Assembly (NCBI GenBank): GCA_020072645.1 | Contig: JAIQGK010000009.1 | Span: 186,001 to 250,000 of the forward strand | DNA: 64,000 nucleotides | Direction: 5' to 3' | Source of the DNA: Terriglobia bacterium | Lineage (GTDB): Bacteria; Acidobacteriota; Terriglobia; Terriglobales; Acidobacteriaceae | Shown here: positions 2,478 to 63,325 of the stretch, in pieces | Numbering within the stretch: position 1 is the stretch's first letter | How the letters are laid out: each line of letters starts with the position of its first letter | The notes under the pieces: model-generated | Seen by the model: only the letters and a program-made list of their open reading frames with translations | Databases searched by the model: none | What the model was told of the DNA's origin: nothing | Made by a program: the position numbers and the translations under genes

Positions 2478-3905
2478 TTAGTTGGCTCTAGCACGCAGGC
2501 CGTGCTCGCGGCTCCCCGCCGGCGACAAGCCATGCTGTTTAATCTTATATAACAACGCCTTGTAGCTGATATTCAAATCCGCCGCGGCCACTTTGCGGTT
2601 CCAGTTGGAATCATCCAGCGCGCGCTGGATCTCCTTGGCTTCCGCATCGTCTTTCAAGCTGCGTACCAGGGCTTTCAATCCGCCGTGCCCGGATGATGAG
2701 GCGCCATCTTCCACGCTTCCATCCCTGCTCTTGGTCTGCAACTCATCCAGTACCTGATTTTCGTCTTCCAGCACCAGATAGCGCTTTACCAGGTTTCCCA
2801 GCTCGCGCAGATTGCCGGGCCACGCGTAGCGCATGCATTCCTGCACCAGTTTGTCAGAAATAGGCAAAGCGTTTTTCCCAAACTGGCGCGCAAAGTTATT
2901 CATGTAATAACGCAGCAGGATTGGAATTTCTTCGCGCCGCTCACGCAATGGCGGCACCGTAACGGTAAAAGCATTCAGGCGGTAGTAAAGATCTTCACGG
3001 AGCCTGCGCTCGGCAATGGCTTTCTTCACGTCAATGTTTGTCGCTGCCAGAACGCGCGCATCAACCGTAACATTGGCGCGGCCGCCCAGACGCGAGAATG
3101 TGCCATCCTGGAGAACGTGCAGCAGCTTGGCTTGCAATGGCGCGCTCATTTCCCCGATTTCGTCCAGCAGGATGGTGCCTTTGTGCGCCATCTCAAACTT
3201 ACCCGGCTTTGATTTGTTGGCGCCGGTAAAAGCTCCCGCTTCATAACCAAACAATTCGCTTTCCAGCAGGTCCGCCGGCAACGCAGCGCAATTCACTTTT
3301 GCCATGGGGCGATGCGCCCGGATCGACATTTTGTGGATTAGTCGCGCCAGAATTTCCTTGCCAACGCCGCTCTCACCCAGAAGAAGGACGGGCACGTTCA
3401 CCTTGGCGATCAGTGCAGCCTGGGCTCGAATCTGCTTCATGGCAGGGCTTGCGGCCAGAAAAAAGAAATCATCGTCCAGATCGTCAACCAGCTCTGAGCC
3501 TTTTACCGGAGCAGCAGGCTGCATATTATTCAAAACAGCCGGATTCAGTGCCTTGCGAATCGCGCCTTGAAACTGCTGCGACAAAAATGGCTTTGTAACG
3601 TAGTCGGACGCTCCGAGCTTAATCGCCTGCACCACCCGGTTTGTGTCATTCACGCAGGAAATCATCACGACTTTTTGCTCGGGATGGAGTTTCTTGCAGT
3701 TTTCCAGTGTTTGCAGGCCGTCCATTCCCGGCATCACCATGTCCAGAACGATCAAATTGGGCGCAGGTCCCCGGGTCATGCGCTGCAATGCCTCTTCACC
3801 GCTGCCTGCGGTTTCCACATTGTAATTTTCAATTTCGAGCAAAGTCTTGGTGTAACGAAGAACACTTGGTTCATCGTCGACGAGTAGTATATTTGGCGCG
3901 CTCAA
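2478..3905 (-). CDS. sigma-54-dependent response regulator (NtrC type, PrsR-like)
   Basis: 475 residues in three parts. A receiver domain covers about residues 5-120 with phosphoacceptor Asp55 in LIVLDMVMPG. A sigma-54 AAA+ domain has Walker A GESGVGKE and the sigma-54-contacting loop GAFTGA. A Fis-type helix-turn-helix lies at the C-terminus (AAADLNISYKALLYKI). It activates sigma-54 RNA polymerase from upstream enhancer sites. Its start overlaps the kinase stop by 4 bp, so the two form a coupled two-component pair. Its recognition helix is nearly the same as that of the second activator at 34900-36018. In XrtA/PEP-CTERM systems the comparable pair is called PrsK/PrsR, which is the basis for the proposed role in controlling the EPS genes here. 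Confidence 0.9.
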   Translation of the reverse strand: MSAPNILLVDDEPSVLRYTKTLLEIENYNVETAGSGEEALQRMTRGPAPNLIVLDMVMPGMDGLQTLENCKKLHPEQKVVMISCVNDTNRVVQAIKLGASDYVTKPFLSQQFQGAIRKALNPAVLNNMQPAAPVKGSELVDDLDDDFFFLAASPAMKQIRAQAALIAKVNVPVLLLGESGVGKEILARLIHKMSIRAHRPMAKVNCAALPADLLESELFGYEAGAFTGANKSKPGKFEMAHKGTILLDEIGEMSAPLQAKLLHVLQDGTFSRLGGRANVTVDARVLAATNIDVKKAIAERRLREDLYYRLNAFTVTVPPLRERREEIPILLRYYMNNFARQFGKNALPISDKLVQECMRYAWPGNLRELGNLVKRYLVLEDENQVLDELQTKSRDGSVEDGASSSGHGGLKALVRSLKDDAEAKEIQRALDDSNWNRKVAAADLNISYKALLYKIKQHGLSPAGSREHGLRARAN

Positions 3906-5543: not shown

Positions 5544-5560
5544 TTGGCAGTCCACTTGCA
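5544..5560 (+). promoter_or_regulatory. sigma-54 promoter of the FemAB-like gene
   Basis: TTGGCAGTCCACTTGCA has GG at 5546-5547 and GC at 5558-5559 with exactly ten bases between, plus good matches at the flanking TTGGCA and TTGCA. Transcription would begin near 5571, only a few bases before ATG 5578, which rules out the longer ATG at 5539 as a start. Confidence 0.7.
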
Positions 5561-8840: not shown

Positions 8841-10571
8841 ATGCTTAAATTTGTAAAAGTCGTTTCAGTGCTGTCCTTGCTGTTGTCTGCTGCGTTCATG
8901 AGCGGGCAAACCGCGCCACCGCGCATTTTTTTCTCTGATCTGGAAAGCGGCCCGAATACGGGCGGCCAGAACAACAACGGCGTATGGGTCACAATCTGGG
9001 GTAAGGGCTTTGGGGCCACACAAGGAACGTCAACGGTGACTGTCGGCGGAGGCGCGGTTGCGAGCTATCCTCTCTGGTCCGATGGCAAGATCATTTTCCA
9101 GTTGGGGGCCGCAGCAAAAACGGGAAGCATTATCGTGAATGTGCCGGGAATTGGCGCCAGCAATAGTTTGCCATTCACGGTGCGGGCAGGCAACATACTT
9201 TTTGTCGCCACCACGGGGAACGACGCCAATACAGGAAGCTTCACGTCGCCCTGGAAGACGATTGTAAAAGCCAAGAACGCCATTGCCGCAGGCGATACGG
9301 CCTACATCGAGGATGCGGTTTCGCAAACATCGCAGGACAACTTCACCGCGTACCTGAGTATGGACAACAATGGCGCGAGTAACTCCGGGACGGCAGCTGC
9401 GCCCAAAGCCCTGATCGCTTATCCTAATGCGACCGTGACGGTGGGTGTGGCAGGCGGCCTGCACTATGGAATCCGCACACCGAATATCGGGACCAATGAA
9501 GATTTCTGGGTGATCTCGCAATTGCACATTGTGGGCGGCACACAGGCCATGGACATTGGCGGCACGGGATGGCGGATTATCGGCAATGAAATGCAGTGCC
9601 CCGGCGCTGACGATCAGGTGGGTTGCTTTGAAATGAGCGGGGGCAACCAGGCAAAGTTTTACGGCAATGACGTGCACAATGCCGGCATCAATCCCACGTC
9701 CTCAAAGTTTTATCACGCCGTTTATTTCAGTACGGATTCAAACCATATTGACGTAGGCTGGAACCATATTCACGATAACTTTACCTGCCGAGCACTGCAG
9801 TTCCATTCTTCACCTCTCTGTACTCCGGCCTGCGGCGCCACAGACACTACCGGCTTTGATCAATTCGATTTGCATGTGCATGACAACCTGATTCACGGAG
9901 ACAACTGCAACGGCATCAACTTCGCCACGGTGGATCCGTCAAAGGGGCCGGTGGAGGCCTATAACAACGTGATCTATAACGTTGGCCGCATGGATCCCCT
10001 GCAACTGGGCGCGGCGTTTTCCTGCATCTATGTTGCCGGCATCACAAATAATGGCGTGGCCGGAACTGGCTCTGTGGAAGTGTTTAACAACACGCTTTCT
10101 GACTGCGCCGCTAATAACTCAGCGAACGCCAGCGGCTCGCGCGGGGCATTTGGCGTGGGCGGCGGCCCGGCAACACTGATCATGCATCTCCGCAACAATA
10201 TCGCTTACCAGCTTGCGGGTGAAATCTATATTGACGGCAGCCTGGCCCAAATCACCGGAGACAAAAATCTCTGGTTCGGAGTTGGCTCAGGCCCCGCGCA
10301 AACGACTAACAACATCAATGCGGATCCCTTATTGGCGAATCGCACCATTGGCGATTACCACATTCTCACTGGCAGCCCGGCCATCAACACGGGCCTGACA
10401 ATTGTGCCCAATAATCCTTTCGAACCGAATCCTGGTCCAACTATCGATACGGACAAGGATGGAGTGCTGCGCGCGCAGGGAGCAGGATACGACCTTGGCG
10501 CTTATGAATTTTTCTCCGGTACCGCGACAAGACCGAATCCGCCTACGAACGTGCGGGCCGCAGTCCACTAA
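8841..10571 (+). CDS. secreted right-handed beta-helix protein with IPT/TIG domain
   Basis: 576 residues with a signal peptide (residues 1-22). An IPT/TIG immunoglobulin-like domain covers about 28-115 (WVTIWGKGFGATQGTSTVTV), followed by a parallel beta-helix region rich in His-Asn turns (VGWNHIHDN, HVHDNLIHGDNCNGINF) up to about residue 540. Beta-helix proteins of this type are often polysaccharide lyases, hydrolases or epimerases, but no catalytic site can be assigned. The ribosome binding site GGAG lies 5 bases before ATG. A close paralogue is encoded at 41907-43580, on the other side of the EPS locus. Confidence 0.78.
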   Translation: MLKFVKVVSVLSLLLSAAFMSGQTAPPRIFFSDLESGPNTGGQNNNGVWVTIWGKGFGATQGTSTVTVGGGAVASYPLWSDGKIIFQLGAAAKTGSIIVNVPGIGASNSLPFTVRAGNILFVATTGNDANTGSFTSPWKTIVKAKNAIAAGDTAYIEDAVSQTSQDNFTAYLSMDNNGASNSGTAAAPKALIAYPNATVTVGVAGGLHYGIRTPNIGTNEDFWVISQLHIVGGTQAMDIGGTGWRIIGNEMQCPGADDQVGCFEMSGGNQAKFYGNDVHNAGINPTSSKFYHAVYFSTDSNHIDVGWNHIHDNFTCRALQFHSSPLCTPACGATDTTGFDQFDLHVHDNLIHGDNCNGINFATVDPSKGPVEAYNNVIYNVGRMDPLQLGAAFSCIYVAGITNNGVAGTGSVEVFNNTLSDCAANNSANASGSRGAFGVGGGPATLIMHLRNNIAYQLAGEIYIDGSLAQITGDKNLWFGVGSGPAQTTNNINADPLLANRTIGDYHILTGSPAINTGLTIVPNNPFEPNPGPTIDTDKDGVLRAQGAGYDLGAYEFFSGTATRPNPPTNVRAAVH

Positions 10572-10581
10572 ACGACACCGA

Positions 10582-11601
10582 TTAGATAAAGTTCTTGATG
10601 CTTAAGAGCGCTTTGGCGCGGGCAATTCCGTAGGTCAGATAGAGCGCGAACAGAGGGAAAAAATCAGAGTATCTCTGGCTGCTCAGTACATGCCTGACGG
10701 CCAGCACAGTTGGTGGCAGGCACAATGCCGCAAACCCTGCCGCGGGCAATAGCCAGGGTCCGTGCCACGCAAGCATCCATATGATGCCGGTCGCCACAGC
10801 CAGCAGGCTGAGCAAAGTGTATGCGGCAAAGAACACAGCTTTGCGATTATGCGACTTCAGTGGATTGCGGAGAAACACCTTGATAACGTGTGTCCCGTGC
10901 CATGCCTGTTTGCGGAAGAAGATGCGCAGGCTCTGGGCCGTCCCCAGATGAATCACGCCGATCTGGGGAAAAGCACGGACCTGCATCCCAGCTTTTCTGG
11001 CACGCTCACAAAGCTCATAGTCTTCATTCGTCTGAATCGTTTCGTCGAAGCCGCCCAGCTTTAGAAAGTCTTCACGGCGCATAATCAGGTCGCCGGCTGG
11101 GACATGTGACACTTCACCGGACTTGGGTGCTTCCTGATAGCGATGCCATGTTCTTCCTACCCATGATGAATTTTCCGGCAACAAGTAATGGGCGCCGAGA
11201 ACCCCTGCGCCATTGGCAGGCGCTAAAGCAAAAACACGATCGAGCCAGTCTGAGGGGACGAGGCAATCTGCATCTAGAAACGCCAGGATATCCCCCGATG
11301 CGGTGCGCGCTCCCAGATTGCGCAACGCGGAAATGCGAACACCCGCCTGTTGCAGGACCTTCAGGTTGAGGCGATCTTTGAAAGATTCCGCGATGGCCAG
11401 GGTTTTATCGCGCGATCCGTTATCTACAATCAACACTTCAAATCGATCACAAGCGAAGGTCAGCCTTGTAAGCGACTCCAGACAACGGCCGATCATTCTT
11501 TCCTCATTCAGCGCTGGGATGATGATGGAAATGTTCACAACGGGGCTCGACACGGTTTGTGTGATGCTCGTCAATGGCACGGCCTGTTCGAGTGAACTCA
11601 T
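10582..11601 (-). CDS. family 2 glycosyltransferase, membrane-associated
   Basis: 339 residues. The N-terminal GT-A domain has ISIIIPALNEERMIGRCL, VLIVDNGSRDKT and the metal-binding DAD in LAFLDADCLVP. After the catalytic domain (about residues 20-250) come two or three hydrophobic segments (AVFFAAYTLLSLLAVATG and others), so it sits on the cytoplasmic membrane. It adds a sugar to a lipid-linked EPS precursor; donor and linkage are unknown. It is the last of four genes read from 14519 and overlaps the preceding gene by 4 bp. Confidence 0.85.
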   Translation of the reverse strand: MSSLEQAVPLTSITQTVSSPVVNISIIIPALNEERMIGRCLESLTRLTFACDRFEVLIVDNGSRDKTLAIAESFKDRLNLKVLQQAGVRISALRNLGARTASGDILAFLDADCLVPSDWLDRVFALAPANGAGVLGAHYLLPENSSWVGRTWHRYQEAPKSGEVSHVPAGDLIMRREDFLKLGGFDETIQTNEDYELCERARKAGMQVRAFPQIGVIHLGTAQSLRIFFRKQAWHGTHVIKVFLRNPLKSHNRKAVFFAAYTLLSLLAVATGIIWMLAWHGPWLLPAAGFAALCLPPTVLAVRHVLSSQRYSDFFPLFALYLTYGIARAKALLSIKNFI

Positions 11602-12770
11602 GCCTGCCTCGCATCAGCATTCCTGCTGTCCAGCGCTCGTGTGGGGACAGTAGCAATCGCTGAAGTGCCCAGAACGTCGTCATACATCTGGCGATACTTC
11701 AGCGCCATGGCTTCAGAGGTGTAATTGCGGCTCACCCAATCGTGGCCGGCCGCGCCAAGGCGGCGGCACAGATCAGAATCGGTAAGCAAGCGCGCGAGCG
11801 CATCTCGCAATCCATCAACATCTGCGGGATCAACGAGCAACCCCGTTTCTCCATCTTTGATCACGCTGGGGATCGCGCCGACCCTGGTTGCGATCACGGG
11901 CTTGGACGCTGCCATGGCTTCAAGAATGGTCATGGGTAATCCTTCATTGAGCGATGGCAGGACAAAGATATCCATCGCCGCGTAAACACCCGGCATATCA
12001 GAGTGCTGACCAGCAAGGATCACGCTGGATTGCAATCCGAATCGCTGGATCATGTTCTCAATCGCCTGGCGATCAGGACCTTCACCTACGATAACAATTT
12101 TCAATCCTGAAAAAGTTCCGCAAAGTTCACGGGCGGCCAGCAGCAGATACTCAAAACCTTTCTGAAGATCAAGCCGGGCAACCATGCCGACGACTTTGTT
12201 GCCATCAAAGTCGAACACCGGCAAAGGACGTGCACGCTCAAACGGTTCCACATCGATACCGTTTGCTATCGTCCTGATTTTCTTGGCGGCGACGCCGGAG
12301 TCGAGCAGGCGCCGCGCTACCGAATCCGATACGGCTGCAAGACCGTGAAATCTCTTGAGCGCCATACGGTCCAGATGGTTGTAGATTCCCAGAGCAGCGG
12401 TGCCTCCCACCCAGTTATGGCAGGTTGCGACGATAGGTTTGTCGGAGCGCCGCGCGGCGACGTAACCATAGAGATCGGCTTTGTATCCATGCGTGTGGAG
12501 TAGTTCAATGCCGTCTTCCTGAATGCACTCCTCAATCTGGCGGACGGCGCGCCAGTCTGCGCGGCCCTGGCAGTGCACCATGCGCACGCTCAAGCCGCGA
12601 CGCCGCGCACGTTCATAAAACTCAACGTTGGGCGCATGCACGTTGTAAAAAAGCATCAGGCTTTGCTGGCAACCGGCTTTCTGCTGGCTCGCGCAGAGGT
12701 TCAGCAGCATGTTTTCCGCCCCGTAATAGCCGCCGCTGCTGATGAGTTGTAATACCTTCACGCGATTCAT
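11598..12770 (-). CDS. family 4 glycosyltransferase
   Basis: About 390 residues from ATG 12770, which lies 10 bp past the upstream stop; a longer frame reaching 12815 would overlap that gene without a better start. GT-B fold: N-terminal glycine-rich SSGGYYGAENML, C-terminal GMVARLDLQKGFEYLL and the donor-binding acidic motif SLNEGLPMTILEAMA of GT4 retaining enzymes. It builds the EPS repeat unit in the cytoplasm. It is part of the 14519-10582 operon with two deacetylases and a GT2. Confidence 0.85.
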   Translation of the reverse strand: MNRVKVLQLISSGGYYGAENMLLNLCASQQKAGCQQSLMLFYNVHAPNVEFYERARRRGLSVRMVHCQGRADWRAVRQIEECIQEDGIELLHTHGYKADLYGYVAARRSDKPIVATCHNWVGGTAALGIYNHLDRMALKRFHGLAAVSDSVARRLLDSGVAAKKIRTIANGIDVEPFERARPLPVFDFDGNKVVGMVARLDLQKGFEYLLLAARELCGTFSGLKIVIVGEGPDRQAIENMIQRFGLQSSVILAGQHSDMPGVYAAMDIFVLPSLNEGLPMTILEAMAASKPVIATRVGAIPSVIKDGETGLLVDPADVDGLRDALARLLTDSDLCRRLGAAGHDWVSRNYTSEAMALKYRQMYDDVLGTSAIATVPTRALDSRNADARQA

Positions 12771-12780
12771 TTCTTGTCTC

Positions 12781-13551
12781 TCAAATATGCATATCCTGCT
12801 GACGGGCCGCTTCAAATTCGTTGTATCCAGTCAAGCGGCACCAGAGCCGATGGTATAAGCTGTCGCCTAACACTCCGACCAGCCCTTCTCTGAGCTGCGA
12901 GCGCAGGCGCAATTTACGCAGTGCGCTGCGATCTTTGGCGACTATTTTCTCGAGCTCAAGAATCGTGGTGGTACGGCGCACCATGAACCGGCCAATTACC
13001 TCGACTCCGTCAATTTCTGTTTCGACCCAGGGATGGGAAACGTAAACGCGCCGGTACCCGGCAGCAGCGCACGCATGGAGCACCCGCCGGTTCCATCGTC
13101 CGCCTGGAACCGATATTTCTTCGACGGCGCTACCGAGATTATCTTCCAGTGATTGTTTTGACGCGCGCAGCTCGTGAGCCAGTTCCGCTTCAGAACAAAA
13201 CGTAAGAAACTTGTGCGACCAGCCATGCGACTGAACTGAATGCCCCGCTGCCTGTAATGCCCTGAAATCATCCCAGCCCAGAAATTTTGCCGCTGTGCCA
13301 ATCAGGCCGGGCGTGACAAAATATGTGGCCTTAACTCCGTGCTCAGCCAGCAACGGCGCCGCGTTGTGAAATTGCGATTGCTCGCCATCATCGAAAGTAA
13401 TCTGGGCACCGAGTGACTTTGTCTTTTTCATCGAATCAAGCAAGCGCAGTTGCTCGACAAATGAAGCTGTCGTCACGCAGTAAGCGTAATTCGATTCTGG
13501 CATCACCTCGTGATAGGCAAGAACCATGTTGCGATCGGCAGGCTGCGTCAT
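12781..13551 (-). CDS. polysaccharide deacetylase (NodB family)
   Basis: 256 residues. The NodB metal-binding start motif is ITFDDGEQSQFHNAAPLL and the second histidine motif is SHGWSHKFL. These enzymes remove N- or O-acetyl groups from sugars using a divalent metal. No signal peptide is evident, so it may act on cytoplasmic precursors. Its start overlaps the stop of the DUF3473 deacetylase by 4 bp. It is one of four NodB-type genes in this EPS locus. Confidence 0.82.
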   Translation of the reverse strand: MTQPADRNMVLAYHEVMPESNYAYCVTTASFVEQLRLLDSMKKTKSLGAQITFDDGEQSQFHNAAPLLAEHGVKATYFVTPGLIGTAAKFLGWDDFRALQAAGHSVQSHGWSHKFLTFCSEAELAHELRASKQSLEDNLGSAVEEISVPGGRWNRRVLHACAAAGYRRVYVSHPWVETEIDGVEVIGRFMVRRTTTILELEKIVAKDRSALRKLRLRSQLREGLVGVLGDSLYHRLWCRLTGYNEFEAARQQDMHI

Positions 13552-14519
13552 CTTTTACCTTTTGCGATGTGCGCCACCGCGTGAAGCGGTTCATGCAAGT
13601 GTTTATCGACCACTAAGCCGGGGGAATGGCGCGCGATCTGCTGCGCGTCAGCTTCAGCGGCTTCCTGGGCCAGTACGTCTTTGAAAGGCTGAAATTTGCG
13701 CCGGCTCAAGACTGTATTCAGCTTGGCATGCATATGTTTGAGGTTTGTATAGTGGCGCACACGCGACTTCATCGGCCCACTGATGCGCGGCTGCTCCGGA
13801 TCAAGCTCCCAAGGATGCAGATAAACCACTACCCGTTCGCCGTACTTCTTTTCAAATGTGCGAAACGCAAACTCGGTAAAAGCCGCTGGGAAGATTCGCA
13901 GATATCCTCCGCCGGCTGCGGGAAGATTTGTGCCAAAAAAGCGAAGCGTCGCCGGGGGAAACTGCCGAAGTTTCAGTCCGTTCGCGCAATCATGCGTGTA
14001 CGGAAACCGTTGCGCACCTGGCACTCCGTAAAGATCATGACGAATGGGATAGATGCTGGAGTCGTATGTAAATCCCTCTTCGGCCAGAATGTCGAGCGCC
14101 CAGAGGCAGGATTTGGTAATCGACCAACTCGGTGCGCGATAACCGGCTATTGACATCCCCGTTGCGTCTTCAATCGCTTGTTTAGCCTGCCGCGTGTCTT
14201 TGCGGAACTCATCCGGCGTTAGGCTGTAGACCGTACGATGCCAGTAACTATGGCAGGCAAGCTCATGCCCACGGGACTGGACTTCACGCACCAGGTGCGG
14301 AAATCGTTCGGCCACCCAACCGACAAAGAAAAATGTTCCCTTGGCATTGTGCTGGTCGAAGAGATCCAGCACACGCTGAGTATTCGCGACCACGCGGGAA
14401 GGCCACCGATGCCAGCCTTTTCGGTCAACTGATCCGGCAAACGCTTCTACCTGGAAATAGTCCTCCACGTCCACGCTTAGAACATGGGTTTGCTTCGGCT
14501 TTGGGTCCTGCTTACTCAA
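13548..14519 (-). CDS. XrtA-type polysaccharide deacetylase with DUF3473 tail
   Basis: 323 residues. The N-terminal NodB motif is LSVDVEDYFQVEAFAG, with HSYWHRTVY and YRAPSWSI further on; the C-terminal part (about 220-290, VVYLHPWELDPEQPRI) is the DUF3473 extension. This architecture is typical of the deacetylase encoded in exosortase A (XrtA/EpsH) EPS clusters. It heads the minus-strand operon that runs to 10582. A sigma-54 promoter at 14579-14595 reads into it, leaving a leader of about 50 nt. Confidence 0.88.
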   Translation of the reverse strand: MSKQDPKPKQTHVLSVDVEDYFQVEAFAGSVDRKGWHRWPSRVVANTQRVLDLFDQHNAKGTFFFVGWVAERFPHLVREVQSRGHELACHSYWHRTVYSLTPDEFRKDTRQAKQAIEDATGMSIAGYRAPSWSITKSCLWALDILAEEGFTYDSSIYPIRHDLYGVPGAQRFPYTHDCANGLKLRQFPPATLRFFGTNLPAAGGGYLRIFPAAFTEFAFRTFEKKYGERVVVYLHPWELDPEQPRISGPMKSRVRHYTNLKHMHAKLNTVLSRRKFQPFKDVLAQEAAEADAQQIARHSPGLVVDKHLHEPLHAVAHIAKGKR

Positions 14520-14578
14520 CCGTCTTTATTCTCCTGGGGCGTTTTTCAGGCGTGGCTTGCCCCGTTTGCTTTGAATAG

Positions 14579-14595
14579 TGCAACGCAGCTGCCGT
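14579..14595 (-). promoter_or_regulatory. sigma-54 promoter of the deacetylase-glycosyltransferase operon
   Basis: On the minus strand ACGGCAGCTGCGTTGCA has GG, ten bases and GC with a perfect TTGCA. It points at the DUF3473 deacetylase start at 14519, about 49 nt from the expected start of transcription. Confidence 0.6.
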
Positions 14596-14663
14596 TGAAG
14601 TCGAATGGAAGTCGCTGTGAAAGCAACAGGTTACGTCGGGATTTTCAGAACTAATTCAGCAGA

Positions 14664-14681
14664 TGTGAAAAATGTTGCACA
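14664..14681. promoter_or_regulatory. EPS dyad site 3
   Basis: TGTGAAA-AATG-TTGCACA: one mismatch from the perfect TGTGCAA-N4-TTGCACA dyad. It is centred about 80 bp upstream of the sigma-54 promoter at 14579-14595. It also sits upstream of the plus-strand gene at 14900, for which no sigma-54 promoter was found. Confidence 0.5.
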
Positions 14682-14899
14682 CGATGAGCAATCGGATTGT
14701 CTTTTCCGCAAGTTGACTTTGCGGTCGGAAAACAGCAAATGGCTGCTAACTTAGTGGAAACACGCGCACAACAACGCCCATTGTCGTGACGGTTTGAACC
14801 CATCCAAACGAGACCAAACGGCAACCTAACTGCTCTCACCTCTGGTTCACCCTATCGATCATGAGCCTTGGGTGAAAGTGCCAAGTTGGAGCAAACTTT
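14682..14899. other. intergenic region before the plus-strand deacetylase
   Basis: No gene visible. A GGAG ribosome binding site at 14887-14890 precedes the TTG start at 14900. A weak GG-N10-GC match at 14723-14736 lacks the other sigma-54 bases and was not called. Confidence 0.4.
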
Positions 14900-15838
14900 T
14901 TGTCCGTTACAACTGAATTGAAATCCTTAGGGCACGCCATCTCGTTCCGTAGCGGCCTCTCGTCGGTCATTGCGCGGCACCAGGGCTGCGGACGCATCCT
15001 TATGTACCACGGCGTTGCGCCGCAAGGCGCCGGAGAGTTGGCAGCTCAGTTACGTTATCTGGCCAGGCATTTCAAAGTAGTGTCGCTGGAAACGATGCTG
15101 GATCGGATAATGAACGGTTCCCATCCGTTGGCACATGAAATCGTTTTGACCTTCGATGATGGTTTGCGCAATAACCTGACGGTGGTTTATCCCATCTTGC
15201 GCGAGTTGCAACTGCCCGCGACGATGTTTGTCTGTCCTGCATTAGTTGAATCCGGCGAGTGGCTTTGGAATCACGAAATGCGCTGCCGTCTGCAAACGCT
15301 TGCGGCGGCAGACCTGGCTGAGCTGCGCATGAAACTCCTGGCGCCCGGCATATCAGTTGACGCAATCGTTGAATGGATGAAAACTCTGCCGCTGGAACAA
15401 CGCCGCAAAGCCGAGGAAACCGTAAGACAAGCCACTGCTGGTTTCCTGCCGAGCGCCGCCCAGCGGGAAGCTTTCGACATCATGAATTGGAATGACCTGC
15501 GTTCGCTCGATCGCGAGCTCATCACCGTGGGATCGCATACATTGAGCCATCCTATCCTGACTAAGTTGAGCGGTCAGGAAATCGAAGAGGAAATACTGGA
15601 GAGCCGCCGGTGTCTGGAACAGCGGCTGGAACGCAAGATAGAGTTCTTCTGCTATCCCAATGGCGCTTATGACAGGCGAGCTTATCAGCTGGTCCAGAAA
15701 ACGTATTGCGCGGCAGTGACTACTGAAGGCGGCGTAATAGAAGATGGCAAGGCGCTTGACGTTCACCGGTTGCCCCGCATCCCCAGCGCGGAAAGTGCCG
15801 CGCTGACAGCATGGCGGCTGCACAGGCCGGAAGCATGA
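14900..15838 (+). CDS. polysaccharide deacetylase (NodB family)
   Basis: 312 residues from a TTG start at 14900 with GGAG nine bases upstream. NodB motifs are LTFDDGLRNNLTVVYPIL and, later, GSHTLSHPILTKLS and FFCYPNGAYD. The inserted middle region (about 120-200) is helical and typical of this subgroup. It probably deacetylates an amino sugar of the exopolysaccharide or its precursor. Its stop overlaps the start of the ATP-grasp/phosphatase fusion by 4 bp (ATGA at 15835), so the two are coupled. Confidence 0.82.
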   Translation: MSVTTELKSLGHAISFRSGLSSVIARHQGCGRILMYHGVAPQGAGELAAQLRYLARHFKVVSLETMLDRIMNGSHPLAHEIVLTFDDGLRNNLTVVYPILRELQLPATMFVCPALVESGEWLWNHEMRCRLQTLAAADLAELRMKLLAPGISVDAIVEWMKTLPLEQRRKAEETVRQATAGFLPSAAQREAFDIMNWNDLRSLDRELITVGSHTLSHPILTKLSGQEIEEEILESRRCLEQRLERKIEFFCYPNGAYDRRAYQLVQKTYCAAVTTEGGVIEDGKALDVHRLPRIPSAESAALTAWRLHRPEA

Positions 15839-17592
15839 GCGAAATGACTGTACTGATTCTTGACGGACATAGCCGCGCGGCCCTGGAAACCCTGCAGAGC
15901 CTGGGCCGAGCTGGAGTGCTGGTAGACCTTGCGTCCCAAATCCCGGACTGCCTGGCTATGCACTCGCGCTACGTAGCGCGCAAGCTACAGCAACCGTCTC
16001 TGGAGAGCGCGGCGGACTTCCAGACGTGGTTGCGGGAGCAGGATAACCTTCGCAATTACACCTTGATTGTGCCCGCCACTGAAGCGTCGCTTCTGGGGCT
16101 ACGGCAACTGGATGAAAACGATCCTCTTCGCCGCAAGGCCGTCGTTGCGGGTGATGAAGCACTTGATATGGCGCTGGATAAAGAAAAGACATGGCAACTG
16201 GCGCATCAACTGGGAATACTAACCCCGAGCGGAGTCTTGCTTTCAACGCTATCGGAAATCGGCCCGCTACAACAGTTCCCCGTGGTGCTGAAGCCAACGC
16301 ACAGCAAGGTGATAGTCGATGGTGGGTTGCGGACGCTCGCCGTGGCTGTGGTGAAAAATGAATCGGAACGGCAGGAGCAGTTGCGGCGCTGGCTTCCATT
16401 TACCCCGGTCCAGCAGCAGGAATATATTCACGGTCGCGGCGTTGGGGTTGAATTTCTGTTCAACCGCGGCAGAAAAATCTGGCACTTCGCGCATGAACGC
16501 GTGCATGAGTATCCGCTCACTGGCGGAGCAAGCTCTTACCGCCGTTCCATTGATCCACCGGTGGCAATGCTTCAAGACGCTGAAAAGCTTTTAACTGCAC
16601 TCAATTGGCACGGCGTGGCCATGGTTGAATTCAAGATAGATGCCAAAGGGCAACACTGGCTAATGGAGATTAATCCTCGTCTCTGGGGATCGCTGGCACT
16701 TTCCATCGATGCCGGCGTGGATTTTCCCCTGGGCTTGCTGCAGGTTGCAAAACGCGAGCAACCGGCTCCGCAACCAAAGTACAAAGTCCCTTATTACACG
16801 CGCGACCTGCGTACGGACGTGGACTGGCTCAAATGCAATATCCGCGCGGACCGGCACGATCCCTTGTTACATACGCGCTCGCGCGCGTTTTCTTTTCTGG
16901 AGCTTCTACTTCCCTTGACCGGCCGTGAAAGCTGGGACCATTTTGACTGGCGTGATCTGGGGATTTCCCGCAGAGTGTTGACTGTGGCAGTAACCGACCA
17001 GTTGCGTCCAGCCTACCGCAAGTTCAAAGACTGGCAAATTAAACGGAGCTTACTGCACCACCACCATGCCTTGTTGCGCCGGCTGAAAGCCGCAGGTGCA
17101 CCAGGCAAGATTCTCTTTCTGTGTTACGGCAACATCTGTCGGAGCCCGCTGGCAGCCGCGCTCGCAGAAAAACGGCTGAGCGGCGTGACAATTGATTCTG
17201 CAGGATTCCACGATCAGACCGGTCGAGGCTGTCCGCAAAAGATCCTTAGAATCGGAAAGTCATTTGGGATCGATCTGTCATTCCATCGCTCTGCGCGCGT
17301 TTTGCGTGATCAATTGGTAAACGCTGACCTGGTGATTGCCATGGATCTGGAAAACCTCAATCGCTTGCGGCAGGAATTTTCGGGAATGGCGAACCGCACA
17401 ACTTTGCTCGGACTCTTTGGAACGCCGGAAACACTCGATATTGCCGATCCTTATCTTGCTGATGAAACTGCCACAAACAATATTTGCGAGCAGGTCCGCC
17501 AGGGCGTGGAAAACCTGGCGTCCTGGGTAGGGGAAATGAAGCGCGCTGCCTCCGCGTCTGCCATCCCGACGACAGCACCCGGTGGTCGCTAA
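15835..17592 (+). CDS. ATP-grasp enzyme fused to a low-molecular-weight tyrosine phosphatase
   Basis: 585 residues from ATG 15835 (ATGA overlap with the upstream stop). Residues about 1-370 form an ATP-grasp domain of the carbamoyl-phosphate-synthase-like type: VVLKPTHSKVI (ATP-binding lysine strand), VAMVEFKIDAKG, and the metal-binding LMEINPRLWGSLAL. Residues about 424-570 form a complete low-molecular-weight protein-tyrosine phosphatase: C(X)5R loop CYGNICRS with Cys430 and Arg436, and the acid motif IADPYLADE near 539. ATP-grasp enzymes join a carboxylate to an amine or thiol; the phosphatase would oppose the tyrosine kinase encoded at 18734. Both domains keep their key residues. The fusion is within one uninterrupted frame. 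Confidence 0.85.
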   Translation: MSEMTVLILDGHSRAALETLQSLGRAGVLVDLASQIPDCLAMHSRYVARKLQQPSLESAADFQTWLREQDNLRNYTLIVPATEASLLGLRQLDENDPLRRKAVVAGDEALDMALDKEKTWQLAHQLGILTPSGVLLSTLSEIGPLQQFPVVLKPTHSKVIVDGGLRTLAVAVVKNESERQEQLRRWLPFTPVQQQEYIHGRGVGVEFLFNRGRKIWHFAHERVHEYPLTGGASSYRRSIDPPVAMLQDAEKLLTALNWHGVAMVEFKIDAKGQHWLMEINPRLWGSLALSIDAGVDFPLGLLQVAKREQPAPQPKYKVPYYTRDLRTDVDWLKCNIRADRHDPLLHTRSRAFSFLELLLPLTGRESWDHFDWRDLGISRRVLTVAVTDQLRPAYRKFKDWQIKRSLLHHHHALLRRLKAAGAPGKILFLCYGNICRSPLAAALAEKRLSGVTIDSAGFHDQTGRGCPQKILRIGKSFGIDLSFHRSARVLRDQLVNADLVIAMDLENLNRLRQEFSGMANRTTLLGLFGTPETLDIADPYLADETATNNICEQVRQGVENLASWVGEMKRAASASAIPTTAPGGR

Positions 17593-17631
17593 AGCGCCTT
17601 TGACCAGCCTGAAGGAAATTCTGCTGCAAAA

Positions 17632-17649
17632 TGTGCAATTTCCTGCATA
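17632..17649. promoter_or_regulatory. EPS dyad site 4
   Basis: TGTGCAA-TTTC-CTGCATA, a good left half and a 5 of 7 right half. It is centred about 90 bp upstream of the sigma-54 promoter at 17729. Confidence 0.45.
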
Positions 17650-17728
17650 TAAGCATGAAAGAAACTTCGCCGGGATGTCACAAATTGCTTGTAAATCATT
17701 GAAAATAAAAGGTATTTGCTGAGATGCT

Positions 17729-17745
17729 TTGGCAGCACACTTGCC
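17729..17745 (+). promoter_or_regulatory. sigma-54 promoter of the ATPase-kinase operon
   Basis: TTGGCAGCACACTTGCC has GG at 17731-17732 and GC at 17743-17744 with ten bases between. It is nearly the same as the promoter at 5544. The expected transcript begins near 17756, 48 nt before ATG 17804. Confidence 0.7.
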
Positions 17746-17803
17746 AATAGTTAGGTAGTTGACCTTCCAGCTAATCACGCGGAAGTTCACATTAGGGTAG
17801 GCA

Positions 17804-18676
17804 ATGTATTCAAATTTTTACGGCTTAAAACAAGATCCTTTTCGGCTCACACCGGACCCTCGCTTCCTTCATCTTGCGGAGCCGCATCGCAACACCCTTC
17901 GCGCCATGGTGGAAGGAGTGGTCGGACGCAAGGGCCTGCAAGTCGCTATTGGGCCCATCGGCACCGGCAAGACCACGCTGCTTTACTGCCTGCAGCACAT
18001 CCTTTCGCATGAGGCTACGCGCGAACGGCCGCTGCGCTCAGCTTTTGTGGTGAATCCAACGCTGACCCCGGACGAACTGTTCGAGGCCTTGTTTGATGAG
18101 TTGGAAATTCACGCCTCTGCGCCAACCAAACCAGCCCGCCTGCGCGCGCTCCACGAGCTGCTGCTGGCGTCACACAAGAGCAACACTGCCGTGGTAGTCA
18201 TCATCGATGAAGCGCACCTGATGCCGCCGGAGCTTATAGAAGAGGTGCGCCTGCTGATGAACCTGGATAATTATCCCGTCAATGTCCTGCAGGTCATTCT
18301 GTGCGGCCAGCCGGAACTTCTTCCGCTATTGACCAAGCCCGAATTAGCGGCATTGAAGCAGCGGATCTCTGTAGTGACTAAACTTCGCGCGCTGACTTTG
18401 ACCGAAAGCAGAGCATACATTGCGGAACGGCTGTATGTTGCCGGATTGCGCGGCGAAAACCCGTTTAACACATCGGCGCTGGAAGAAGTTTTTCGTCTTA
18501 CGAATGGCGTTCCGCGGCTGATCAACTCGATTTGCGACCACACTCTTGGCGTCGGTTTCCGGCGCCAGCTAAAAAAAGTTGGCGCGGATGCAGTGCTTGA
18601 AGCAGCCGAGGAAATGGGCTGGGAACAGCCCGCGCCTGTAGCATCGCCGGAAAGTTTGGCAAAGACAGGTTCTTAG
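17804..18676 (+). CDS. ExeA-like AAA ATPase of XrtA/PEP-CTERM EPS systems
   Basis: 290 residues. It opens with YSNFYGLKQDPFRLTPDP, the typical N-terminus of the ExeA/XrtA-associated ATPase family. Walker A is GPIGTGKTT at residues 50-58 and Walker B is VVVIIDEAH at about 132-140, followed by sensor and lid regions. Proteins of this family sit beside the chain-length kinase in exosortase-type EPS clusters; their exact job in export is not settled. There is no membrane segment. It is read from a sigma-54 promoter and is followed 57 bp later by the tyrosine kinase. Confidence 0.87.
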   Translation: MYSNFYGLKQDPFRLTPDPRFLHLAEPHRNTLRAMVEGVVGRKGLQVAIGPIGTGKTTLLYCLQHILSHEATRERPLRSAFVVNPTLTPDELFEALFDELEIHASAPTKPARLRALHELLLASHKSNTAVVVIIDEAHLMPPELIEEVRLLMNLDNYPVNVLQVILCGQPELLPLLTKPELAALKQRISVVTKLRALTLTESRAYIAERLYVAGLRGENPFNTSALEEVFRLTNGVPRLINSICDHTLGVGFRRQLKKVGADAVLEAAEEMGWEQPAPVASPESLAKTGS

Positions 18677-18733
18677 CTATCAAAAAAAAAGTAATAACAA
18701 TTTGAAATAAATTCAGACAGGAACAAAGACGGC

Positions 18734-19663
18734 ATGAGCAAATTCTTTAACGAAACTCGCACCGTAAGAAAAACAGATCCAGTTCCAGCAACGGCGAATG
18801 TCAATATTCAGGACCTTGTCAGTTCGCTAAAGGAGCACATGGAAAGCAACGGGGCGGCGGCTTCGCATTCCAGCCAGATTGATCTTCAGCACTTGCTGCA
18901 ACCCCTGGAAGAGTCGAATGAAGTTGCTTCTCAGGTTGCGGCCGTCCGGCTGGAAAATTGCCGAAGCGTTAAGCTGCCGCGCACAGAAGAGCGGTCCTTT
19001 CTGGTATCGCAATACAATCCCGCGATGCAGGCCGCAGTGGAAGCCTACCGCACGCTCCGGACCCGCCTGGTAAAACAGCAGACCCGGACCGGCGCGCGAT
19101 CACTGGTCATAACCAGCTCCGCGCAGGGTGAAGGCAAAACCTTGACGATCTTCAATCTGGCCATCTGCTATGCCAAGATCGAAAACTGGCCGGTGCTGGT
19201 GGTGGACGCCGACCTGCGCACGCGAGGACTATCGATTTTGGCGGGCGACCCGGAATCACCCGGTCTGGCTGAGATCCTGGAAAAGGACTGCTCTTATCAA
19301 TCTGCTATACTCCGGACTGATATTCCCGGACTCCACATTCTGCCGGCCGGCGAAACCAGCGCCTCGCCTTCTGAGCTGTTTTCCGGACAACGCTGGAAAG
19401 AGTTCATGGGCTGGGCAACCGAATCTTTCCGCCTAGTCCTGGTGGACTCGCCTCCGGCGTTAAACCTTGCCGACTTTGAATTGATCGCCGCTTCTTGCGA
19501 GAGCGTGATGGTGGTGGCGCGTGCCCGCAAGACACCCCGCGAGTCATTGGCGAAAGTACTGGCTCAGGTTGACCCACGCAAGATCACCGGGGTGGTTTTC
19601 AATGCTGCCGAAGAAACACCGGAGAATGGATACTACAGGTACACGGCAAAAGCAGGCGCTTAG
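18734..19663 (+). CDS. CpsD/BY-type tyrosine kinase (EPS chain-length control)
   Basis: 309 residues. After a flexible N-terminal 95 residues comes the BY-kinase domain: Walker A SSAQGEGKT (about 127-135), Walker A-prime VLVVDADLR, and Walker B VLVDSPPALN. The C-terminus ends in a small tyrosine cluster (NGYYRYTAK), the usual autophosphorylation site. There is no membrane part; the Wzz-like partner is a separate protein encoded at 29744-31285. The kinase and the phosphatase domain of the 15835 fusion make a likely phosphorylation cycle controlling polymer length or export. A strong terminator follows the gene. Confidence 0.88.
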   Translation: MSKFFNETRTVRKTDPVPATANVNIQDLVSSLKEHMESNGAAASHSSQIDLQHLLQPLEESNEVASQVAAVRLENCRSVKLPRTEERSFLVSQYNPAMQAAVEAYRTLRTRLVKQQTRTGARSLVITSSAQGEGKTLTIFNLAICYAKIENWPVLVVDADLRTRGLSILAGDPESPGLAEILEKDCSYQSAILRTDIPGLHILPAGETSASPSELFSGQRWKEFMGWATESFRLVLVDSPPALNLADFELIAASCESVMVVARARKTPRESLAKVLAQVDPRKITGVVFNAAEETPENGYYRYTAKAGA

Positions 19664-19680
19664 CTAAAATGAGATAACAA

Positions 19681-19709
19681 AAGCCCTCCTCACGGAGGGC
19701 TTCGTTTTT
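19681..19709 (+). terminator. rho-independent terminator after the tyrosine kinase gene
   Basis: Perfect 9-bp stem AAGCCCTCC / GGAGGGCTT around a TCAC loop, followed by CG and a run of five T. It ends the plus-strand ATPase-kinase transcript and also isolates the convergent minus-strand small gene. Confidence 0.85.
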
Positions 19710-19752
19710 CTAAAGGACCAGCGGGAACCAATTTCGCTGTTCCTTGAGATAT

Positions 19753-19971
19753 CTACCGAGTGCGAGCGGCAGCGCGCCGGCGGCGCAAGAAGGTTGCTCC
19801 TGAAATCAGGAGTGATCCCAGAACAATCAGCCATGCGGACTCAGGAAATGATTCAAAATGTTGCACACCATCAGCAATCACATTGTGGAATTCAAGGGCC
19901 CCCAAAAACAAACTTCCTGAGAGCAGAAATAACAAAATTCCGATAATAGAGTAGGTAAACTTTTTCACCAT
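19753..19971 (-). CDS. small PEP-CTERM-like surface protein
   Basis: 72 residues in three parts. An N-terminal hydrophobic signal segment covers residues 5-26. A short exposed linker holds LEFHNVIADGVQHFES. The C-terminus has the order of a PEP-CTERM sorting signal: FPES, a hydrophobic helix (AWLIVLGSLLISGATFL), then basic RRRRAAARTR. In PEP-CTERM proteins an exosortase cuts next to the Pro-Glu and attaches the protein to the EPS or cell surface. Here the signature is PES rather than PEP, so the assignment is an inference from layout and context. A sigma-54 promoter with a -24/-12 match lies about 110 bp upstream and is shared across a dyad with the divergent glycosyltransferase. Confidence 0.65.
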   Translation of the reverse strand: MVKKFTYSIIGILLFLLSGSLFLGALEFHNVIADGVQHFESFPESAWLIVLGSLLISGATFLRRRRAAARTR

Positions 19972-20081
19972 GGTTCGATCCGCCCAAATCTGTTAATTCG
20001 TCATTACAAAAGCGACAGTGCGCGCCCGGAAGGGCTACATCATCGCGCACTGTTTGGCTTTCATGATCTGCTATGGATATA

Positions 20082-20098
20082 TGCACGGGCAGTGCCAA
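20082..20098 (-). promoter_or_regulatory. sigma-54 promoter of the PEP-CTERM-like gene
   Basis: On the minus strand TTGGCACTGCCCGTGCA has GG, ten bases and GC with a full TTGGCAC. The transcript would start near 20070, giving a leader of about 100 nt before the start at 19971. Confidence 0.65.
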
Positions 20099-20145
20099 AG
20101 CCATCTACACAAAATCAAGGAGATATGCGGCAAACTTTGAGTTAA

Positions 20146-20163
20146 TGTGCAAAAGCTTGCAGC
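20146..20163. promoter_or_regulatory. EPS dyad site 5, between two divergent sigma-54 promoters
   Basis: TGTGCAA-AAGC-TTGCAGC. It is centred about 59 bp from the minus-strand promoter at 20082-20098 and about 143 bp from the plus-strand promoter at 20295-20311, so one bound activator could serve both. Confidence 0.5.
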
Positions 20164-20294
20164 AAAATGTCACAATTGATGGGATAGCAAATCCGGAGAG
20201 ACCGCAAGAATTGGTCTCGCGGTCTCAAGTCATTGAAAAAGCAAGAGAATTTTAATCTGGGGAACGAAAACGGAGTTTGCCATATCTAAGCTTT

Positions 20295-20311
20295 ATGGCT
20301 GACAAATTGCA
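20295..20311 (+). promoter_or_regulatory. sigma-54 promoter of the GT4 gene
   Basis: ATGGCTGACAAATTGCA has GG at 20297-20298 and GC at 20309-20310 with ten bases between and a perfect TTGCA. The expected transcript starts about 48 nt before ATG 20370. Confidence 0.65.
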
Positions 20312-20369
20312 GTCTTAGGGTCTTAAGTTTTGTGCCCTGATATTTTCGTCCGCTGGTTCCACGGAAGGT

Positions 20370-21599
20370 ATGCAACAATTTTCAACTCACGTGCTGGACT
20401 CCTCACAAGCCCAGGGCTCATCTAGCGCCCCAGATGCGTTTGACGAGTTGGCCATTGGCGACGCCAATGCGCGGCCGCACGTGCTCTTCCTTATCGACCA
20501 TTTAATGGCCCTGGGCGGCGGAGAAACCAACCTGCTGAAGGTAGCCCAGTTGATGCCGCCAGAGCTAGTTCGCTGCTCAATTGCTACCTTTCGTATTAAA
20601 CCTGAGATTCTCCAGAGTATCTCGGTCCCGGTTTATGTCTTTCCCTGGAAGCGCTTTTTTCATCTGGATGCCTGGAAAGCAGTCATCGCGCTGCGCAAAC
20701 TGATCCGGACAGAAAAAGTAGATATCGTTCAAACATATTTTGAAACTTCCAATTTGTGGGGCGGCCTTGTGGCCAAGCTGAGCGGGGCGTTGCTGCTGTC
20801 TTCCCGCCGTGACATGGGAATACTGCGGAAAGCCAGGTATGCTCTGGCTTATCGTCTGGTGAACCGGCTCTCCGACCGCGTGCTTGCCGTATCAGAAGAA
20901 GTAAAGAAATTCTGTGTTGACGCTGACCGCATAGATCCGGAAAAAGTTTCAGTTATTTATAACGGAGTTGATCTTAAGCAAATTGCCGCTGAGAATTCAG
21001 ACGATAATCCCTTTGCAGACGCCGATTGGGCCGGCGCCTCGCATATCATCGCTTGCCTGGCCAATATCCGCAGGGTGAAAGGCATAGACACACTGATACA
21101 GACGGCACAACGTGTCTGCCAAGCGTTCCCGGATGCCGTCTTCATAATTGCAGGCAGCCTTTACGAGCGCGACTACGCAGAAAAAATGCAGTCAATGGTC
21201 CGCCAGCTAGGCCTGGAGAAAAATGTGAGGCTGCTGGGCTTTGTGGGCGATCCTGTTCCGCTGCTCAAGATGAGTGACGCGTTCTGTCTGCTTTCCCGCA
21301 GTGAAGGTTTCTGCAACGCGCTGCTGGAAGCGATGGCATGCGGCGTTCCTTCCGTAGTCACGCGCGTGGGCGGTAATCCTGAAGCAATCACCGATGGCGA
21401 GAACGGCTTTTTGGTTCCGGTTGAGGACGATGCCGCCGCGGCCGAAAGACTGCTCACATTGCTCGAGCATCCTGAACGGGCAGCGCAAATCGGACAGAAC
21501 GGGCGCACCTCCGTAGAAACGCGATTCAGCGCCGACGTGATGATACAGAAATTGATTGGTGTTTATCGCGATCTATTGACTGAGAGAGATAGAAAATAG
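20370..21599 (+). CDS. family 4 glycosyltransferase
   Basis: 409 residues. GT-B fold with the N-terminal motif FLIDHLMALGGGETNLLKVA, an interdomain CLANIRRVKGIDTLI, and the donor-binding SRSEGFCNALLEAMACG typical of GT4. About 35 residues before the first domain are low complexity. It converges with the deacetylase gene at 21620, leaving 20 bp between stops. It likely adds a sugar to the EPS repeat unit in the cytoplasm; the sugar is unknown. Confidence 0.85.
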   Translation: MQQFSTHVLDSSQAQGSSSAPDAFDELAIGDANARPHVLFLIDHLMALGGGETNLLKVAQLMPPELVRCSIATFRIKPEILQSISVPVYVFPWKRFFHLDAWKAVIALRKLIRTEKVDIVQTYFETSNLWGGLVAKLSGALLLSSRRDMGILRKARYALAYRLVNRLSDRVLAVSEEVKKFCVDADRIDPEKVSVIYNGVDLKQIAAENSDDNPFADADWAGASHIIACLANIRRVKGIDTLIQTAQRVCQAFPDAVFIIAGSLYERDYAEKMQSMVRQLGLEKNVRLLGFVGDPVPLLKMSDAFCLLSRSEGFCNALLEAMACGVPSVVTRVGGNPEAITDGENGFLVPVEDDAAAAERLLTLLEHPERAAQIGQNGRTSVETRFSADVMIQKLIGVYRDLLTERDRK

Positions 21600-56260: not shown

Positions 56261-56308
56261 GCTTCTTCAGTTGGCTACCGAGCGGCTGATCCCACGGGAG
56301 GTGCCACG

Positions 56309-63318: not shown

Positions 63319-63325
63319 CGGTTGA

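Follow-up and report, generated by a model that had tools for sequence, protein, structure and literature searches.

An ATP-grasp ligase fused to a low-molecular-weight tyrosine phosphatase in an acidobacterial exopolysaccharide locus, a candidate two-step biosynthetic enzyme

When a phosphatase domain is encoded in one frame with a ligase and lies a short way upstream of a tyrosine kinase, which of the two does it serve? The question is posed by a gene at 15835-17592 of a 64,000-nucleotide stretch of a Terriglobia bacterium (family Acidobacteriaceae; assembly GCA_020072645.1, contig JAIQGK010000009.1, positions 186,001 to 250,000), the whole of which we call the window. The gene joins an ATP-grasp domain to a low-molecular-weight protein tyrosine phosphatase (LMW-PTP) domain within an exopolysaccharide (EPS) locus that also encodes a bacterial tyrosine (BY) kinase. 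A preliminary description, made from the sequence alone, had read the phosphatase as opposing this kinase and the fusion as a coupling of precursor chemistry to phosphorylation state. Our comparisons confirm the fusion as genuine and suggest that the phosphatase tracks the ligase, not the kinase.

Both domains lie intact in one open frame

The fused gene, its parts and the gene directly upstream are as follows.

15835..17592, + strand, ATP-grasp/LMW-PTP fusion gene, a single open frame of 585 amino acids from 15835
15835..16785, + strand, ATP-grasp domain (residues 9-325)
16786..17106, + strand, C-terminal part of the ATP-grasp protein and junction (residues 326-432)
17107..17535, + strand, LMW-PTP domain (residues 433-575; Pfam LMWPc)
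17122..17142, + strand, catalytic loop C438-(X)5-R444 (CYGNICR)
17446..17454, + strand, acid motif D546-P547-Y548
14900..15838, + strand, polysaccharide deacetylase-family gene directly 5' of the fused gene (Pfam Polysacc_deac_1, E 8e-24)

The first in-frame ATG, at 15811, would give a protein of 593 amino acids, and residue numbers follow this longer form. The start at 15835 is the likelier one, being preceded by GGAAG and overlapping, as ATGA, the stop codon of the deacetylase gene. The same overlap is present in three of the four genes from the window and its genus relatives, L059 having CTGA in its place.

As the preliminary description had it, the frame holds an ATP-grasp domain and a complete LMW-PTP, and both give Pfam matches above cut-off. 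The phosphatase half, with its CYGNICRSP loop and DPY acid motif, matches LMWPc (PF01451) over residues 434-569 and profile positions 1-143 of 144 (E 7e-23, 81.8 bits against a cut-off of 23.2). The ligase half matches ATPgrasp_Ter (PF15632) over residues 204-322 only (E 7e-9, 35.9 bits against a cut-off of 29.1); a match to Pfam ATP-grasp_3 stays below cut-off. Four unfused homologues align up to residues 363-386 and then continue for another 33-45 amino acids, and most of residues 326-432 are therefore assigned to the ligase. When a profile of eight fused proteins was compared with solved structures, one half matched LMW-PTPs (YwlE 4pic with E 3e-25, AmsI, Wzb) and the other the carbamoyl-phosphate-synthase-like ATP-grasp protein 2pn1 (E 9e-9).

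The catalytic residues, described earlier as intact, also align. K124, K161, E273, E286, N288 and R290, which we take to be the nucleotide and magnesium residues of the ATP-grasp half, are invariant in all eight aligned fused proteins, as are C438, G440, N441, I442, R444, S445, P446, D546, P547 and Y548 of the phosphatase half. Nonsynonymous divergence (dN) is well below synonymous divergence (dS) in both domains in comparisons with three relatives, with dS near saturation for L058 and L059; against L057, dN/dS is 0.086/0.49 and 0.053/0.21 for the two domains.

Two more specific identities were considered and set aside. A Ter-operon ATP-grasp enzyme does not fit the EPS context of the locus, and no ter gene is found among the Pfam and NCBIfam matches of the ten genes at 8841-21599. 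An arginine phosphatase of the YwlE type does not fit the loop, which reads GNIC and not GNTC, an isoleucine/threonine rule that we presume to hold here.

The fusion recurs and appears to have arisen at least twice

To place the gene among its relatives we used one set of 200 genomes from the window's family, covering 79 genera. Both domains share one open frame in nine of these genomes (six of them re-read), in the marine gammaproteobacterium HTCC2143 and in three plasmid records of Vibrio alfacsensis. Recurrence of the same frame across so many separate assemblies disposes of a false fusion or frameshift artefact, and the preliminary description's proviso that homologues might prove to be separate adjacent genes, falsely joined here, does not apply. 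Full-length relatives are 85% (L057), 73% (L058), 67% (L059) and 43% (G024/L061) identical to the window protein; more distant ones are found in HTCC2143 (L060, 41%), in G022 (L062, 29%) and on the V. alfacsensis plasmid (L081, 26%). The EPS locus around the plasmid gene is likewise of the XrtA/PEP-CTERM kind and has annotated prsT, prsK and prsR genes. A plasmid search with the window protein matched 114 records, of which three, all from V. alfacsensis, reached 80% query coverage; the Vibrio protein as query matched 33 records and returned the same three fusions. In the corresponding phage search 11 records matched and none covered 80% of the query.

Two or more fusion events appear to lie behind this distribution, since the phosphatase halves fall into two separate, supported clades. 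One holds the window type (7 rows, support 99/95). The other (12 rows, 100/95) mixes four ATP-grasp-fused phosphatases with eight that are not fused to an ATP-grasp domain. Among the ligase halves, the window type likewise forms a single clade (100/100), and unfused ligases join the second fused set in a clade with 100/100 support; a single clade for the first eight fused ligases is rejected (p-AU 0.0007). A later ligase tree gathers all fused rows in one weak grouping (31/65), so that the ligase tree taken by itself would still accommodate one origin with later losses. The Vibrio sequence sits on a long branch, and its placement is uncertain. Identical domain sequences were collapsed in some tree sets, the fragments L128 and L129 were left out of one phosphatase tree, and ATP-grasp matches shorter than 230 residues were left out of the ligase trees; L194 and L200 are labelled as linked in the phosphatase tree although their full-length ATP-grasp proteins lie on other contigs.

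The phosphatase keeps company with the ligase

The 200 genomes were searched with the window's LMW-PTP domain (E <=1e-7), with its ATP-grasp domain (E <=1e-20) and for BY kinases with TIGR01007 (E <=1e-20). Such searches find relatives of the query above the E threshold, and more distant LMW-PTPs, or PHP-fold proteins in the search given below, could be missed. The phosphatase was found in 19 genomes, the ligase in 29 and the kinase in 184. All 19 phosphatase genomes also carry the ligase, with 2.8 expected (hypergeometric 1e-19), and all 12 phosphatase genera are among the 19 ligase genera of the 79 (hypergeometric 1e-9), p-values that overstate independence because the sampled genomes are related. 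Phosphatase and ligase share one open frame in nine of the 19, lie within 3 kb in seven and 5.5 kb apart in one, and are on different contigs in two. By comparison, 165 of the 184 BY-kinase genomes have no such LMW-PTP. The pattern holds within the 43 genomes that carry an XrtA-type deacetylase: the phosphatase is present in 12 of the 16 that have the ATP-grasp gene and in none of the 27 that do not. The complete co-occurrence strongly supports a link between ligase and phosphatase, and the census as a whole suggests that the phosphatase follows the ligase and not the kinase.

Fusion of adjacent genes is common, and sister loci do hold the ATP-grasp and LMW-PTP genes as separate neighbours, as would be expected had two neighbours with unrelated roles simply become joined without consequence. 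The low dN/dS in both domains, the occurrence of fusions in separate clades and the strict co-occurrence even where the two genes are unfused all speak against such a neutral event, which we consider very improbable.

Is the kinase the target?

The window locus is an XrtA/PEP-CTERM-type EPS cluster, whose deacetylase at 13548-14519 passes NCBIfam TIGR03006. Its gene order of deacetylase, fused gene, AAA ATPase, BY kinase and glycosyltransferase is kept in the genus relatives L057, L058 and L059. The two genes that follow the fusion are these.

17804..18676, + strand, AAA ATPase resembling the XrtA/PEP-CTERM-associated type (Pfam AAA_22; NCBIfam TIGR03015 193.7 bits, below its cut-off of 324.5)
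18734..19663, + strand, BY-type tyrosine autokinase with a Tyr-rich tail, GYYRY (NCBIfam TIGR01007 117.7 bits, above its cut-off of 108.05)

Against NCBIfam TIGR03018 the kinase scores 128.8 bits, below that model's cut-off of 230.65. Its start lies 1.14 kb downstream of the end of the fused gene, with the AAA ATPase gene between them, in agreement with the 1.1 kb given before.

The phosphatase half might then be the Wzb of its locus, dephosphorylating the tail of the BY kinase, and the fusion would tie kinase cycling to the supply of decorated precursor. In the window genome this is a serious rival. The kinase occupies the same place in all three fused genus relatives, and the phosphotyrosine-type loop and DPY motif are kept in all eight fused proteins. 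Of the 200 genomes, 172 carry CpsB_CapC, the PHP-type phosphatase that usually acts on BY kinases; none was found in the window genome (G000), G004 or G006. G000 has just one other LMW-PTP match, with a loop that we take to be of the arsenate-reductase type. In the window's genus the fused phosphatase could serve the kinase. Elsewhere in the phylum, at 12 of 20 LMW-PTP loci, the phosphatase domain has a BY-kinase domain at a distance of about 1.6 kb; these loci were chosen as having no adjacent ATP-grasp gene (one, L143, is a glycosyltransferase fusion), so that the selection accounts for part of its absence. On the V. alfacsensis plasmid, a BY-kinase match lies about 25 kb from the fused gene. 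In Vibrio cholerae the LMW-PTP VpsU dephosphorylates the kinase VpsO (PMC7485978).

Beyond the many BY-kinase genomes that do without the phosphatase, several observations stand against this assignment. CpsB is also found in 13 of the 19 LMW-PTP genomes, and in these 13 the LMW-PTP is therefore not needed for want of another phosphatase. Within the window's own genus, G001 and G007 have the kinase, and neither CpsB nor the LMW-PTP was found in them. A BY kinase was seen in one of 13 further LMW-PTP loci that were read, several of them short contigs, and none in the 20-22 kb read around L060, L061 and L062. In G024 the genes around the fused gene are unrelated ones (DNA ligase, RF-1, cation efflux) with no evident part in EPS synthesis, apart from a deacetylase gene next to it.

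The phosphatase sequences point the same way. Kinase-adjacent phosphatases (13 rows, including E. coli Wzb) group apart from the window-type clade, with support of only 93/38, and the fusion protein scores 48.6 bits against the 243 required by the NCBIfam Wzb model NF007520. The position after the catalytic cysteine holds a ring residue (Y, F, W or H) in 22 of 24 ATP-grasp-fused or -linked phosphatases and in 0 of 13 kinase-adjacent ones. Such a residue also occurs in three of eight other phosphatases (L072, L147, L149) and in one of the four fused to a GT4 glycosyltransferase, rows that stand outside both groups and have R, H, R and R at this position. The window domain thus shares with Wzb, VpsU and Etp the fold, the C(X)5R and DP motifs, the EPS locus and a nearby kinase, and differs from them in its fusion to a ligase, its separate clade and its co-occurrence with an ATP-grasp gene rather than with the kinase. 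On balance we regard service to the kinase as possible but doubtful. Of the coupling proposed in the preliminary description, the tie between ligase and phosphatase holds up well, and the part in which the phosphatase opposes the EPS kinase is weakened by the kinase genomes that lack it and by the presence of CpsB.

A PHP-fold protein takes the place of the phosphatase

Near some ligases that have no LMW-PTP, a PHP-fold protein is encoded instead, fused to the ligase in G035 (L071/L215) and adjacent to it in G345 (L070) and in the haloarchaeal locus L082, the last of which was not counted. A search of the 200 genomes with the L070 protein (E <=1e-20) found it in eight genomes, all eight carrying the ligase (8e-8); it is fused in G035 and lies within 1.5 kb in the other seven. 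It occurs in seven of the ten ATP-grasp genomes without an LMW-PTP, and G479 has both, so that one or the other is found in 26 of the 29 ATP-grasp genomes. The two partners alternate among close relatives in the ligase tree, where L206, with a PHP protein, groups with four LMW-PTP rows (100/100).

Like CpsB_CapC (PF19567), this is a PHP-fold enzyme standing in for an LMW-PTP. The two look like different families: at E 0.001 the L070, L071 and L082 proteins match PF02811 or PHP_C and not CpsB_CapC, and the L070 type is found in 8 genomes against 172 for CpsB. PF02811 scores are 27.2, 24.4 and 32.1 bits against a cut-off of 26.4; with the CehA/McbA model L070 falls below the cut-off and L082 above it. 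Judged by its family, the ATP-grasp-linked PHP protein would be a phosphatase.

In L203, a thymidylate-kinase-like P-loop kinase gene (10230-10922, - strand) lies beside an ATP-grasp gene for which neither phosphatase was found; it is possibly a small-molecule kinase of the same pathway.

A two-step enzyme of glycoconjugate decoration?

ATP-grasp ligases work by way of an acyl phosphate, the activated form of a carboxylate that is then joined to an amine. In the explanation that we find best, held at just short of an even chance, the fusion is a two-step biosynthetic enzyme that carries out consecutive steps on one intermediate of polysaccharide or glycoconjugate decoration. The ATP-grasp half would join an ATP-activated carboxylate to an amine, forming an amide during the decoration of an EPS (or related glycoconjugate) building block or repeat unit. 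The phosphatase half would take off a phosphate within that brief pathway, the simplest candidate being a phosphate on the building block that was ligated. The fusion itself, its intact active-site residues, the low dN/dS, the repeated joining of the two domains, the strict co-occurrence in the family sample and the PHP stand-in beside related ligases are observed; that both halves act on one small molecule, in which order, and with which amine and carboxylate, we infer.

We propose consecutive steps on one intermediate because the best-fitting published ligase-phosphatase pair works in this way. In the assembly of the Campylobacter jejuni capsule, Cj1438 uses its ATP-grasp domain to form an amide between glucuronic acid and serinol phosphate or ethanolamine phosphate, and Cj1435 then removes the phosphate (PMC11800379). 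Both cases pair a polysaccharide-locus ATP-grasp with a phosphatase, and in both the ligase is part of a multidomain protein. They differ in construction, Cj1438 having a TupA-like ATP-grasp fused to a GT2 domain with the phosphatase separate, and the window protein a PF15632-matching ATP-grasp fused to the LMW-PTP.

The surroundings of related genes offer further hints of chemistry. Of 28 loci, picked by similarity to the window protein and therefore no random sample, 15 have a polysaccharide deacetylase match no more than 3 kb from the ligase domain. In L062 and L190, from two genera, the fused gene is near a one-module non-ribosomal peptide synthetase (NRPS; C-A-T-TE) and sulfotransferase genes, with a flippase (L062) or an unscanned 520-aa frame (L190) between NRPS and fusion. 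This cluster mixes NRPS and polysaccharide genes. A mycothiol-like pathway (glycosyltransferase, phosphatase, deacetylase, ligase, acetyltransferase) would be an attractive parallel, from which we claim nothing.

The preliminary description had called for structure prediction of both domains, and their folds come out as expected. An AlphaFold2 model built from five sequences has a mean pLDDT of 68 and a pTM of 0.46, and the placement of the domains relative to each other is not to be read from it. Its phosphatase half superposes on Wzb of E. coli K30 (2wmy) with Z 19.9 and a root-mean-square deviation of 1.8 over 144 aligned residues. The ligase half matches GAR synthetase 2yrx (Z 21.2), 2pn1 (20.2), 3vot (19.9) and PylC (19.3), in a structural-neighbour list (VIA-align) whose lack of many ATP-grasp families is no evidence against them. 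The best Foldseek matches of the model are the L-amino-acid ligases 3vot of Bacillus licheniformis (E 5e-15) and RizA 4wd3 (E 7e-14), at 16% and 12% identity, from which a substrate is not transferable. To PRK12767/carbamoyl-phosphate-synthase-like ATP-grasps and 2pn1 there is likeness in both fold and sequence (47.1 bits to NF009405); unlike them, the window protein falls below every NCBIfam cut-off and carries a phosphatase. A full-text literature search, mostly of open-access papers (few subscription papers, no bioRxiv preprints), found no description of an ATP-grasp/LMW-PTP fusion, and none of the NCBIfam models scanned reached its cut-off, in keeping with the earlier remark that this is not a well described family.

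Evidence against a two-step enzyme, and the other fusion partners

Besides the relatedness of the sampled genomes, which tempers the census, several observations weigh against a two-step enzyme. A BY kinase is present in all 29 ATP-grasp genomes. Neither phosphatase was found in three of these 29 (G319, G352 and G398, the contig in G398 being 4.3 kb long). The structural neighbours do not fix the substrate of the ligase, Z being similar for GAR synthetase, biotin carboxylase, PylC and amino-acid ligases. The phosphatase half keeps residues that we take to be of the tyrosine-phosphatase type (the GNIC loop and an aromatic residue after DP), and its close folds include Wzb. Finally, the ligase is not the sole partner. 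In four loci (L054/L143, L064, L066, L067) a phosphatase of the same family is joined to a GT4 glycosyltransferase, and in L194 to a flippase, as listed here.

L064 8571-10472, GT4-LMW-PTP fusion
L066 7289-10435, GT4-LMW-PTP fusion
L067 8630-10540, GT4-LMW-PTP fusion
L143 10331-10763, LMW-PTP domain of a GT4-LMW-PTP fusion
L194 9628-11883, - strand, flippase-LMW-PTP fusion (flippase Wzx-like, Polysacc_synt; LMW-PTP from the same clade)

No ATP-grasp gene was found in the 20 kb read around the L143 fusion. In L064, L066 and L067 the GT4-phosphatase gene directly adjoins the ATP-grasp gene, and in L194 two frames about 3 kb from the flippase-phosphatase gene contain ATP-grasp fragments. The glycosyltransferase half of L064 resembles TIGR03087, the PEP-CTERM/XrtA glycosyltransferase (215.9 bits, cut-off 316.65), and nucleotide-sugar dehydrogenase genes adjoin the fused gene in L064 and L066.

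That related phosphatase domains are variously fused to a GT4 enzyme, a flippase and an ATP-grasp ligase is what one would expect of a domain with a general part in EPS assembly, regulatory or for docking, that acts on phosphotyrosines of kinase-modified enzymes. Such a role leaves unexplained why, in the family, the phosphatase was found only in ATP-grasp genomes and why it is replaced by a PHP protein that does not match CpsB and was found only with the ATP-grasp gene; we judge it unlikely.

Other features of the window

Between the fused gene and the genes for the AAA ATPase and kinase lies a possible promoter.

17729..17744, + strand, sigma-54-like -24/-12 site TTGGCAGCACACTTGC, an exact match

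Because of this site, the kinase genes may have their own promoter and form a transcription unit separate from the fused gene. A similar site is present in two of the three orthologous gaps (L057 and L059, not L058). Allowing up to one mismatch, the window holds 17 matches to the pattern against 9.0 expected, a count as high being reached in 1 of 100 shuffles, with a pattern chosen after the site at 17729 had been seen; an earlier pattern with wrong spacing gave no enrichment (12 matches against 8.3 expected). A second exact site lies at 5544-5559, near the start of a GNAT gene, and NtrC-type regulator genes are apparently encoded at 2478-3905 and 34900-36018, judged by eye from their translations.

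The EPS cluster is flanked by IPT/TIG-domain proteins at 8841-10571 (+ strand) and 41907-43580 (- strand), alike by eye only. Three consecutive partial matches to the phage-integrase family at 54697-57203 (+ strand) are perhaps the remains of a mobile element. A DUF5682 protein is apparently split between overlapping frames at 61046-62272 and 62134-63339 (- strand; profile positions 1-355 and 336-727), which appears to be a frameshift, real or from sequencing; VWA_CoxE and AAA_5 genes adjoin it.

Implications for the family

A wider, more tentative proposal, which we rate as rather unlikely as it stands, is a 'ligate, then uncap' family, in which an ATP-grasp ligase attaches a phosphate-capped amine or amino acid to a unit of a polysaccharide or glycoconjugate and the phosphatase joined to it removes the cap, with two or more recruitments of the LMW-PTP fold and one or more of the PHP fold for the second step. 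If this is true, these LMW-PTPs would be small-molecule phosphatases hidden among the protein tyrosine phosphatases. LMW-PTP genes of EPS loci are commonly read as switches that oppose a BY kinase; if a subset of them serves an ATP-grasp ligase, as their co-occurrence suggests, those annotations would be wrong, and the fusion would mark clusters that make amide-decorated, transiently phosphorylated polysaccharides. The fusion offers a clean test case, with one protein, two active sites and two competing classes of substrate.

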